Source: Rhodothermales bacterium
Lineage (GTDB): Bacteria > Bacteroidota > Rhodothermia > Rhodothermales > Bin80
DNA length: 46,585 nucleotides
NCBI GenBank assembly: GCA_022822185.1
Contig: JAJECE010000123.1
Location: forward strand, 1 to 46,585
Reading direction: 5' to 3'
Shown: positions 1-46,585 of the stretch, in pieces
Position numbering within the stretch: the stretch's first letter is position 1
Layout of the letters: each line of letters opens with the position of its first letter
Program-made: the position numbers and the translations under genes
Notes under the pieces: generated by a model
Seen by the model: only the letters and a program-made list of their open reading frames with translations
Told to the model about the DNA's origin: nothing
Databases searched by the model: none

Positions 1-201
1 CACATTGTCCCCATTAACGTCTTCGAGAGTGATACCTAATGCGTCAGACAGTAAGCACGGTGAGGTTATTGTGCAAAGATCGCCGCTACCATTGACTAGG
101 TCCACATAGTAGTCAGCCGTACCCTGTGAAGATGCACTGCGAGGAATGACCAGAACGGTCAGCAGTGCTAGAAGTGTCAGAAGGGAATTACCCCCCCCCA
201 T
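1..201 (-). CDS. Secreted protein, N-terminal fragment, G9 tract at start
   Basis: This is the N-terminal end of a minus-strand gene that runs off the left edge, with 67 codons visible. Reading from the ATG at 201 gives MGGGNSLLTLLALLTV followed by a hydrophobic stretch and a likely signal-peptidase site near SASSQ. The mature part begins GTADYYVDLVNGSGD and has a CTITSPCLLSDALG stretch, which resembles the first strand of secreted parallel beta-helix proteins. A second ATG at 218 would give a more usual lysine-containing n-region (MKHITKW), but in this sequence it is out of frame by one base and stops after 13 codons. The frame difference lies exactly in the run of nine G's. The function is unknown; a secreted, surface or T9SS cargo protein is an inference from the signal peptide and the genome type. 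Confidence 0.6.
   Translation of the reverse strand, partial: MGGGNSLLTLLALLTVLVIPRSASSQGTADYYVDLVNGSGDLCTITSPCLLSDALGITLEDVNGDNV
191..199 (-). repeat. G9 homopolymer tract at the start of a secreted protein
   Basis: Nine C's on the plus strand read as nine G's in the minus-strand gene. The tract sits between two candidate start codons (218 and 201). Ten G's would fuse the start at 218 to the signal-peptide frame; nine G's leave only the start at 201. Tracts like this are typical sites of slipped-strand phase variation, and also of sequencing error. Confidence 0.7.
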
Positions 202-42365: not shown

Positions 42366-43244
42366 TCACCCCTTCAACTCCCATGACGGATGTTCCGGGA
42401 GCCTTTTTTTTAGTTCACCGATCAGTTCCTCTTCATAGAAGCCTTGATACTTGCGGGCAAAGAAATGATCCAGTGCTTCATCTTGAAGCCGTTTCCAGGA
42501 TGATTCTTCTTCACCCGGCAGAATTGGGTAGAAACATGCATCCACACTCTTCGCTGCGCGATAGTCACTGAATGCATCCCCGATCATGAGTATGCAATCC
42601 GGCACATACTGGCTGCCTGCACAGGTGGATAACTGATAGGATTTGGGACCCATTTCCTGGCCTGCAATCTTCTGTACATAATCCGACAGTCCATGTTCGC
42701 CCCATTCCCGCTGCAAAGCCTCCAGCGGTGTACTGGAGGCCACCATCATATCCGCCTGATCCGCCGCTTTAGAGAGCACCGCATGTACATAGGGAAATGG
42801 AGGAATTCCATGCACCATCTCGGTCACCGCCTGATTGACAGTTTCGCTCCATACCAATGCATCCATCAGCGCAGGGATTTGTTCGGCGGCTTCCGCAAGT
42901 GCAGAATTACCTAATTTTGGGTTCGTATGTATCCAGTCGTTCAATGCTTCCAGACACGGAATATCCACCCTGCGACGTAAAACTTCTGGACGCGTACGTA
43001 ACTGATCCATGACCCGCACCAGCGCAGGAAAGCGGTTCATACCCCGGTCAACCGAATACAGATTCACAAACTCCCATGAATCCCGGACAAATTTACTTAT
43101 TGCCTGTAAACCATAGTGACGGACCGTGACAGGACAAAAACACTCCTTATGTTTCACTTCCATCGTGTCAAAGACACAGCCATCCGAATCAATTGCAATC
43201 AGAAAATCCTTACTCTTTTGCAGTGACAAAAGCGAATTACTCAT
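42366..43244 (-). CDS. HAD-superfamily hydrolase
   Basis: This 292-residue protein has the nucleophile motif IDSDGCVFD near residue 20, a long helical cap (VRDSWEFVNLYSVDRGMNRF onwards), motif II ASSTP and the metal motif GDAFSDYRAAK near residue 225. ATG 43244 starts just before the catalytic core and is 22 bp after the stop of the isomerase gene; the frame open to 43385 overlaps that gene. The substrate is unknown. Pairing with a sugar isomerase suggests a sugar phosphate. Confidence 0.85.
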   Translation of the reverse strand: MSNSLLSLQKSKDFLIAIDSDGCVFDTMEVKHKECFCPVTVRHYGLQAISKFVRDSWEFVNLYSVDRGMNRFPALVRVMDQLRTRPEVLRRRVDIPCLEALNDWIHTNPKLGNSALAEAAEQIPALMDALVWSETVNQAVTEMVHGIPPFPYVHAVLSKAADQADMMVASSTPLEALQREWGEHGLSDYVQKIAGQEMGPKSYQLSTCAGSQYVPDCILMIGDAFSDYRAAKSVDACFYPILPGEEESSWKRLQDEALDHFFARKYQGFYEEELIGELKKRLPEHPSWELKG

Positions 43245-43266
43245 TGGGATCGTGTAAGATTTACCG

Positions 43267-44190
43267 CTATTTTTGAACAGGAATGAACTGCCGCAGATAG
43301 TTAACACTCTGCCGCAGTGCAGCGATCCGCGATTCCAGCGATCCTTCATAAGCACGATCTTCAACCTCAACACAGACGGATCCACTGTATCCTGCGTCGG
43401 TGAGAAAAGAGAAAAATTTCCCCCAGTCTATATCTCCCAATCCAGGCAGCTTGGGGGTATGGAAAGAGTTTGGAACCGCCAGAATACCAACTTCATTAAG
43501 GCGGTCCTGATCAAGCCGAACATCTTTGGCGTGGATATGAAAAAGCCGACCGGCAAACGTGCGGATTGGCTCAAACGCGTCCATATGCTGCCAAATCATA
43601 TGTGACGGATCGTAATTGAGTCCAATGGCGTTACTGTCCAGATCTGCAAAGAGACGGTGCCAGATTGCAGGCGAGTAGGCAATATTCTTACCCGAGGGCC
43701 ATTCATCATCTGTAAAGTACATCGGACAGTTTTCGATTCCAATCCGAATCTTCCGGTCCTCTGCATAGGTAACAAGCGGTTTCCATACCTCTATCATTCT
43801 GGCCCAATTATCTTCAACGGAACGGTGCCAGTCACGACCAATGAATGTATTTACGGTATTCAGTTCAAGCAGTGCCGCCGCATCCACCATACGCTGGATC
43901 TGAAGAATAGAAACTTTTGCTTCTTCCAAGTCTGGAGATAATGGGTTCGGATAATAGCCCAGTGCACTGATTGCAACACCGGTTTCGGAACTCAGGGTTT
44001 GAAGGATTCGTGCTTTCTCTTGATCCAGCGACTGCACATCTACATGCGTAACCCCTGCATAGCGCCGGTTGGCTTTGCCTTTTGGCCAGCACATCAACTC
44101 CACACAATCACAAGAAAGATCTGAGGCAAGAGAAAGAACATCCTCAATGGATAATTCCGGCACAATTGCGCTTACAAATCCAAGTTGCAT
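43267..44190 (-). CDS. Sugar phosphate isomerase/epimerase (xylose-isomerase-like TIM barrel)
   Basis: This 307-residue TIM-barrel protein starts [18 protein letters not shown], typical of the family; a further 17 codons upstream to 44241 are open but less likely. Metal and substrate residues are visible in [25 protein letters not shown] and VCVEVED. Members isomerise or epimerise sugars, keto sugars or inositol derivatives. It is cotranscribed with the following HAD gene and faces the dehydratase pair convergently. A role in sugar-acid metabolism is inferred. Confidence 0.87.
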
Positions 44191-44241
44191 CCTCTGTTTG
44201 GGTTGAATGACATCAAAGGCAATGAACGAGACTTGTATCAT

Positions 44242-44607
44242 TGATGTTCACGAATCCCATCCGGGAGAACGAAAGTAGCAGAGATTCGGTTAAACCCGCA
44301 CATATGGATCTGAATGCTTGAGACACGAATCAATCCAGAGAATCCGCATGCCACCCTGATGTGAACCGTAGCGCAGGATTTTGGGATATGAATGGGAACG
44401 AACCATGCCTATGTTTTGCCTTCTTCCTGGTTTTCGTGGAGACAAAGAATTAAAATTTCCAGTAAATTGTATGTCTATTGGGAGTTTCACCGAGAAATTC
44501 GTATACTCCTGAGGATCTTCTCCGGCAGTAGATTTACCAGAATTGGCAGCAAGTTTGATTTGTTTGTGATTCATACTTTTTTTGTTCACACTTAGATATG
44601 CAAAGAC
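44242..44607. other. Divergent intergenic region
   Basis: About 365 bp between the isomerase gene and the fibronectin-III gene. It contains a minus-strand frame (44290-44625, 111 residues, no motif) that overlaps the start of the next gene and that I do not accept. A T7 run at 44577-44583, preceded by two TTTG boxes, could be part of a Bacteroidota-type promoter, but the spacing is not exact. Confidence 0.4.
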
Positions 44608-46585
44608 ATGATGCGGCTTAATCACTCATGGGACGATTATTCTCTCCTTGAGTTAGTCAACTACCCCCCCATTTTTTCATTGGAAGTTCCACATTGTACA
44701 CTTCCTGCTGTTATTCCTATTGGTTTTCCCAATAGGAGCATGGGCACAGGGAGATGGAAATCTGCAGCTGGCTCCATCTCAGAGTTTGGCGGCAGAACGT
44801 AGTCAGATTGACCTTTCTCATGATTTACCCGCCAGCGGTTTTAACGCTGTTTCCACACAATATGGGAGTTCTGTCGACTCCTCATCAAGGGATCCATTAG
44901 AGGATCGTGACAACTGGACAGATGCCGCTCTGAATGAAGAGGGCACAGGCGGAATCTCTATGACTCTCAGTCCTGATGCTGACCCTCCTGATCCGCCATC
45001 GTATTTAAGAGCATTCGGTGGACCTACTCTGATTGAACTTCACTGGACCCCTCCCGATGACGACGGTGGATCGGCGATTACCGGATACAATATTGATTCT
45101 TCTTCTGATGGAGGGAATAACTGGAATTCTTTGCATTCAGGTGTTATGGGGACATCTGCTATTCATCATTCGATTGCATCAGGATCAACGTTCCATTACC
45201 GTGTCCGTGCCGTTAACAGCGATGATGAAGTGAGCGGTGTTTCCAATGTAGTCAGCGCAACAACGGGTGGGCCGGGTTATGTGACGGACTTAACTGCGGA
45301 GGCTGTCGGGCGCAATCAGATCAGCCTTTCCTGGACGACTCCCGGTAACACTGGTACATCGACCATTACAGGCTACCGCATTTATAGGTCCACCAATTTA
45401 GAGACTCCCTGGACTGATTTTTTATTCGATATTCCAGGCACTGGCACAAGCCATGGACAGCAATCCACATTTCAGGTAGGCACGACGTATTATTACCATG
45501 TCGCTGCGATCAATGCCACGGGTGTAGGCCTTCCATCCGATATGGCTCAAGTAACCATAGAGGCCCGTGCACCGGACGCGCCCACGAATTTAACCGCAAC
45601 CCCTTCCGGACCGACCCAAATCGTTCTTTCCTGGACGGCCCCCAATGATACCTCCCCCAATGATAACGATGGAGTGGAGAGGATTACCGGGTATAAAATT
45701 GAGATGTCCCCGGATGGAATAGGTTGGGAAGATGATCCTCTGGTGGAGGACACTGGAAATAATGCGACAACCTACACAGATACGGGACTTACCGAAGGCA
45801 CGACGCGCCACTACCGCGTCTCTGCGATCAACTCCGTTGGTGCGGGCGATCCATCCAACGAGGCCTCTGCAACGACGCAGGCAATTACTGCGCCGGATGC
45901 ACCGGATGCGCCCACAAATTTGACTGCAACGGCTTCCGGACAAACCCGGATTGATCTTTCCTGGACGGCCCCTGCGAACGATGGCGGTGCCGCCATTACA
46001 GGGTACCGGATTCAGGTGTCCTCGAATGCAGGCAGTTCCTGGAATCCTCTGCAGGATATCACAGGACGCGCAACCACGACCTATTCTCATAGCGGGCTTA
46101 CGGCCGGCACGACGCGCCATTATCAGGTCCGTGCGATCAATTCCGTAGGTGCGGGTGCCCCTTCCAATGTGGCCCATGCAACGACCGATGCCGCCACGGT
46201 CACGGTGCCGGAGGCACCCGCCAATCTGACGGCAACCGCTTCCGGCCCGACCCGGATTGATCTGTCGTGGACGGCTCCCGCCAGCAACGGCGGATCGTCC
46301 ATCACAGGGTATCGGATTCAGGTGTCCCCCAGTGGAACCGGAAATTGGACGAATCTGGTCGACAATACCCGAAACACCAATACGACCTATATACATACGG
46401 ATCTTTCCCCCGGCACGACGCGCCATTACCGGGTCCGTGCCATCAATTCCGTGGGTCCGGGTGCCCCTTCCGATGTCGCCCGCGCAACGACAACGGCCGC
46501 CGCCGCGCCGGACGCGCCCTCAAATTTAACTGCCACCGCTTCGGGGCGAACCGAAATTACGCTTTCCTGGAGCTCCCCCTCCAAT
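44608..46585 (+). CDS. Fibronectin-III repeat secreted protein, frame broken at C7/T6 tract, partial
   Basis: From 44657 to the window end a single frame stays open for about 640 codons without any ATG, GTG or TTG start before its signal peptide (FHIVHFLLLFLLVFPIG then AWAQG). The only start in range, ATG 44608, reads MMRLNHSWDDYSLLELVNYPP in the next frame. Loss of one base in the C7 (44664-44670) or T6 run (44672-44677) joins them. The mature part has about 70 residues of leader, then six FN3 domains starting near 44990, 45270, 45570, 45890, 46195 and 46505. Each has the LTATASG, DLSWTAP, ITGYRIQVS and GTTRHYRVRAINSVG strands. The gene continues beyond the edge, so any C-terminal sorting domain is not visible. 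A role in surface adhesion is inferred. Confidence 0.8.
44664..44677 (+). repeat. C7-A-T6 homopolymer pair at the frame break
   Basis: Seven C's, one A and six T's lie between the start codon at 44608 and the signal-peptide frame. One base fewer in either run would restore a single open frame. Confidence 0.75.
45570..46585 (+). repeat. Tandem about 305-bp FN3-encoding DNA repeats
   Basis: Successive FN3 units are similar at DNA level, with blocks such as GGCACGACGCGCCATTA and GTGCGATCAATTCCGT recurring near 45798, 46107 and 46412. Similarity is higher between units 4 and 5 than with units 1 and 2, which points to recent unit duplication. Confidence 0.75.

Follow-up and report, generated by a model that had tools for sequence, protein, structure and literature searches.

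This locus raises the question of why an FN3 surface-protein gene should lie one base out of frame with its only nearby ATG codons, and whether the homopolymers at the frame break act as a switch. The window, meaning the whole stretch of DNA that we analyzed, is the complete contig G000:C64 (46,585 bp); it belongs to G000, a 3.71-Mb draft genome of 132 contigs, of which our analysis covered the surroundings of tracts and a small number of other regions. We consider it very probable that the C7 tract at the break is a simple-sequence-repeat contingency locus, and that it is one of about two dozen such loci shared with restriction-modification enzymes.

The frame break in the FN3 gene

Direct reading of positions 44664-44677 gave CCCCCCCATTTTTT, a C7-A-T6 sequence, which confirms an earlier, sequence-only reading of this DNA in placing the break within paired homopolymers (C7 at 44664-44670 and T6 at 44672-44677). 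That reading was also right that the signal-peptide frame lacks a start codon, since no start codon stands between the in-frame TAG at 44654 and the tract, and that the nearby ATGs (44608 and 44611) miss the frame opening at 44672 by one base. This long frame begins FFHWKFHIVHFLLLFLLVFPIGAWAQ and continues into FN3 domains (five stretches matching Pfam fn3, E=9e-64). Its signal peptide was called by inspection of the translation, and the sole in-frame common start nearby, a TTG at 44720, falls inside the hydrophobic core. As judged from the frames across 44608-44672, the tract separates the start codon from the gene body, and its length sets the frame (Table 1). A C7 run is uninformative when taken alone, because approximately 421 G/C runs of at least 7 are expected by base composition in a genome of this size.

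Table 1. Positions of the tract-associated features in the window and of the Type ISP loci in four genomes
Feature	Position	Strand	Basis
Putative second switch gene (ATG-G tract followed by NSLLTLLALLTVLVIPRSASSQ); in frame; cut by contig start	1..201	-	Translation; several near-identical copies in G000 and G003
G9 tract of second gene; first G is the G of ATG	191..199	-	Sequence
Leader, from ATG-ATG start to tract, MMRLNHSWDDYSLLELVN	44608..44663	+	Frame open from 44608
C7 tract, proposed switch	44664..44670	+	Sequence; homologous tracts in paralogues and orthologue
A-T6 after tract (A 44671, T6 44672-44677), shared flank	44671..44677	+	CCCC-ATTTTT recurs after the tract in paralogues
Motif on minus strand, AAAAAAT-G7-TAG	44661..44677	-	A6-T-G9-TA consensus of 30 unrelated loci
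FN3 surface protein with its signal peptide; open for 638 codons, truncated by contig end	44672..46585	+	Pfam fn3
Signal-peptide hydrophobic core, FLLLFLLVFPIGAWA	44702..44746	+	Inspection of translation
Type ISP loci	G000:C49:1873, G002:C79:96787, G006:C5:27258, G009:C11:15004		Mid-gene G tract; LlaGI-like

Tract lengths in FN3 relatives and other gene families

The window N-terminus is shared by about ten relatives in G000, nearly all of which have poly-C between the ATG leader and the signal peptide. Their tracts measure C6, C7, C8, C9 (several), C10, C11, C12, and C15, and in many of them the ATG-to-tract distance is 17 to 18 codons. A more distant relative, on contig C43, has an in-frame start and no tract. 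Counting both G000 and its sister genome G003, 7 of 17 FN3 loci are in frame with an upstream ATG and the remaining 10 are out of frame. Given that the paralogues and a syntenic orthologue carry C6 to C16 at exactly the same site, the position of the tract is not a product of chance.

We take contig G003:C104 (L189), from the sister species, to be the syntenic orthologue on the strength of its alignment to window positions 43093-45903 (2.8 kb, 82% identity), which spans the neighboring gene, the leader, and the FN3 body. It has the same ATG-ATG at the same 56-base distance from the tract, which here is C9, so that translation from these codons runs directly into the signal peptide. It follows that the gene truly starts at the leader and that its frame depends on tract length. 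The sequence-only reading had named homologues with a start in the long frame as grounds for abandoning the idea of a switch. The orthologue does have such a start, but because the start codons are identical and the frame differs only through tract length (C9 versus C7), the comparison supports switching. Substitutions between the two leaders are mostly amino acid changing, which by itself gives no sign of constraint at the protein level.

We propose the following model. Slipped-strand replication would lengthen or shorten the C run that separates the ATG-ATG leader from the signal peptide, and the FN3 surface protein would be made only at lengths that bring these two parts into frame, that is, in one of three phases; at C7 the window gene would be in its OFF state. 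Changes in length are presumably frequent and reversible in cells, and the product of the ON state is presumably exported.

A G9 tract had also been reported at the left end of the window, and AT-G9-TAA does occur there on the minus strand (201-188) and shares its frame with a signal peptide. The suggested search of the genome for further secreted genes with homopolymers near the signal peptide returned both the FN3 paralogues and the family to which this left-end gene belongs. Members of that family have the form ATG-G tract-NSLLTLLALLTVL, with tracts of G8, G9, G10, and G12 among the copies of G000 and G003. An additional ATG (ATGAAACACATTAC...), placed in a different frame, makes the G10 and G12 copies readable as well and gives them a longer N-terminus. 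The copies on contigs C35 (G8) and C78 (G9) have 260 bp in common with 0 substitutions and a single 1-bp indel, located in the tract, and their upstream DNA differs. Elsewhere, the sequence ACTCTCTACCATTT... downstream of a G8 tract is joined to three different upstream sequences (G000:C7:21392, G000:C107:30684, and G004:C78:10362; loci L074, L114, and L217), one of them being the upstream part of the left-end family, and recombination or element insertion at G tracts is possible at these junctions. A protein encoded at 691-2139 on the minus strand of the window ends in GNYPNPFNPSTRIQFDLPE...TGLMTLVK, which we take to resemble a Por-type (type IX) secretion sorting tail. Many G000 contigs stop no more than a few hundred bases from a tract (C19, C20, C35, C64, C78, C86, C87, C106, and C107), which would be expected if the assembly breaks at repeated secreted-protein modules.

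The contig C35 and C78 copies bear on the alternative that slippage during transcription, or frameshifting by ribosomes, at C7-A-T6 lets every tract length give some full-length protein, so that the tract would tune the amount made. Paired homopolymers are good slippage sites, and in Buchnera RNA-polymerase slippage on poly-A rescues frameshifted genes (PMC2831843). Slippage by itself, however, leaves DNA length differences between near-identical copies unexplained, and we regard it as an unlikely account of the locus.

Tracts of the same kind occur in genes for restriction-modification enzymes. A Type ISP enzyme, whose relatives in the PDB are LlaGI and LlaBIII, has a mid-gene tract of G9, G10, G11, and G11 across four species and is intact in only one of them, that with the G10 copy. 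In the other three the gene is frameshifted at the tract, leaving upstream open reading frames (ORFs) of 395 to 528 codons and downstream ORFs of approximately 200 codons that contain the C-terminal specificity domain. A Type III Mod gene is intact in two of four cases, being broken at G9 in two genomes and intact with G10 and with a G9 in another phase. Both of these DNA methyltransferase genes thus appear to be switched by a repeat tract, in that intact and broken alleles were both seen. Orthologue pairs elsewhere flip between intact and broken as well (C10 on contig C18 versus C14 on contig C90, C8 on contig C97 versus C9 on contig C2, and C9 on contig C51 versus C8 on contig C108). Pfam matches of the tract genes include the surface-type domains fn3, Big_12, Calx-beta, LRR, and others, with Ig-like proteins among the product classes, and the methyltransferase domains N6_N4_Mtase, TypeIII_RM_meth, Type_ISP_C, Eco57I, and N6_Mtase. 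Homopolymer switching as a shared strategy, which the sequence-only reading had suggested for secreted proteins, finds support in far more than the two window tracts, namely in the approximately ten FN3 paralogues, the G-tract signal-peptide family, and several restriction-modification genes, but it does not stay restricted to secreted proteins, because DNA methyltransferases carry the same tract.

At one further locus, G000:C101:10148 (L109:2499-2506) and G003:C63:7157 match at 95% identity for 1,565 bp, as far as a C tract, and diverge immediately after it. The continuation of the G000 sequence lies about 6 kb further along in G003 (C63:13246), beside a short C run, and the difference looks like a deletion or insertion with its breakpoint at the tract.

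The comparisons across genomes also weigh on the idea that the C7 length is an assembly or sequencing error and that the gene, with an in-frame tract, is simply intact. Homopolymers are error prone, and the genome is a 132-contig draft, but tract lengths differ at many loci in several independent genomes, with ORFs broken exactly at the tract. Moreover, the identically flanked copies on contigs C35 and C78 differ in length, and runs of C15 and C16 occur at the same FN3 site. We judge such an error to be very improbable, and one confined to the window locus would leave the interpretation of the family unchanged.

No more credible is pseudogenization, in which case the window copy would be an inactive gene, one of an expanded FN3 family, that suffered an accidental frameshift. 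Some FN3 copies may indeed be dead: paralogue L041 (G000:C9:1-5189), whose C12 tract puts its start in frame, is further frameshifted at sites within the FN3 body that lie apart from the tract, and is either a decaying copy or an assembly error, and the paralogue on contig C50 is without the usual ATG. The window body, however, is open for 638 codons, and the gene is interrupted only by the tract, whose length varies in nearly all relatives. The least probable alternative of all places an unusual start codon downstream, with the tract acting on expression in some other way from a 5' untranslated region; a compact signal peptide (HWKFHIVHFLLLF...) does lie wholly 3' of the tract, but no ATG, GTG, or TTG is usefully placed, the 17- to 18-codon distance is retained in many paralogues, and the Type ISP and Mod tracts are mid-gene, where only an effect on frame makes sense.

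Homologous alleles with conserved flanks therefore differ in tract length, both in and out of frame, at the window and its orthologue, in Type ISP, in Mod, and in other pairs. Taken together, the length differences among paralogues and orthologues, the flips between intact and broken genes, and the G8 and G9 copies on contigs C35 and C78 support, at the level of sequence comparison, phase variation by simple sequence repeats in the surface-protein and restriction-modification genes of this Rhodothermales-type lineage.

The sequence around the tracts

We inspected all 68 G/C runs of at least 8 in G000 together with their flanks. This number cannot serve as evidence for switching, as base composition predicts 109 and the only excess is in the tail of runs of at least 10. 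The flanks were distinctive: AAAAT precedes 21 of the 38 G000 runs of at least 9. In an unselected count over 59 genomes, in which homologous copies inflate the figures, AAAAT preceded 71 of 143 G tracts of at least 9 in four congeners (G000, G002, G003, and G005), 15 of 261 in other members of the family, and 1 of 500 in the 43 genomes that represent other families of the order (congeners versus other families, Fisher P ~1e-52). When homologues were collapsed by hand, approximately 9 of 26 tracts in G000 were still preceded by AAAAT (P ~1e-21 versus base composition).

The flank was compared over 30 loci, one per homology cluster, that had been selected on AAAAT only. The consensus over these unrelated loci was A6-T-G9-TA, 18 letters that occur in either orientation relative to the gene. 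Outside the selected letters, A was found at position -6 in 26 of 30 loci and at position -7 in 23 of 30, TA followed the tract in 19 of 30 (P ~2e-14), and sequence beyond A6-T and TA looked random. Tract length within the motif was 9 in 43 of 77 cases and 10 in 16 of 77. About two dozen tracts in G000 lie in surface-protein and DNA methyltransferase genes, mostly within A6-T-Gn-TA. Across all species, the matches listed were single ones scattered over many phyla. Two motif copies with similar flanks lie approximately 400 bp apart in one gene region of G002 (L175; C156:16367 and 16768), which suggests a recent local duplication, and one gene of G005 (L202; C87:31400) has a second G10 run about 40 bp downstream of its G9 tract.

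Several origins of the flank were considered. Coding constraint is an improbable cause, since the genes may lie on either strand relative to the motif, and a built-in start codon (AAAAAATG) would fit only genes on the G strand. A mobile cassette of approximately 18 bp carrying the tract is disfavored, the expectation for an insertion having failed at three comparisons with tract-less sequences. G005:C82 and G002:C124 align without gaps across the tract. In Mod, the tract-less G002 homologue (GAATGGAGTAGTT) and the tract allele (AAAAAATGGGGGGGGGGTAGTT) both keep AATGG..GTAGTT and differ by only approximately 6 bp in length, and in the Type ISP enzyme the tract stands in place of DrdV residues and adds about one. 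These alignments argue for tracts having formed in place rather than having been inserted; decay of an old tract could mimic a gap-free alignment. The methyltransferase at C22:55346 lies within DNA missing from G003 and hence offers no empty-site comparison.

A further possibility, which we think rather unlikely, is that A6-T-Gn-TA is a specific signal. A factor of the clade (a DNA-binding or repair protein, or a slippage preference of the replisome) would then create and keep hypermutable G tracts, and unrelated genes would become switchable by acquiring this shared short sequence.

Significance and known systems

Repeat-based phase variation has been described mostly from host-adapted pathogens and commensals. 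The present data point to a large phase-variable repertoire in an uncultured Rhodothermales-type genus, consisting of FN3, Ig-like, and other surface-type proteins along with several restriction-modification enzymes. Searches of the open-access literature, which give only weak evidence of novelty, returned no account of repeat-based phase variation in Rhodothermales, searches of open-access full text returned no related account of phase variation in sponge symbionts, and a literature search found no earlier description of the 18-letter A6-T-G9-TA sequence. If the flank is functional, what appears to be a general mutational accident would become an identifiable sequence module, and what sets the mutability of a tract would become directly testable.

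Homopolymeric tracts at the 5' ends of genes are known as a general silencing device (PMC2831843). The FN3 locus resembles that device in having a tract near the gene start and silencing by frameshift; it differs in that short poly-A/T dominates the survey, in which there was no general excess of poly-G/C, whereas the tracts described here are poly-G/C. Phasevarions (PMC5149525) likewise involve Type III Mod genes whose frame is toggled by a simple repeat. Unlike them, the set of candidate methyltransferase genes found here extends to Type ISP (LlaGI-like) and other methyltransferase classes.

The closest likeness is to the poly-G/C genes of Campylobacter and Helicobacter (PhasomeIt survey, PMC6321876; H. 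canadensis, PMC2823697). In both cases, tracts lie within or at the start of ORFs and turn the frame ON or OFF, lengths peak at 9 and 10 (53% and 26%, respectively, of Campylobacter poly-G/C tracts; PMC6321876), and the genes concerned encode surface proteins and methyltransferases, which are the usual content of phasomes (PMC6321876, PMC5149525). The lineage studied here belongs to a different phylum, and in it the flank A6-T-Gn-TA is seen in unrelated genes and in either orientation.
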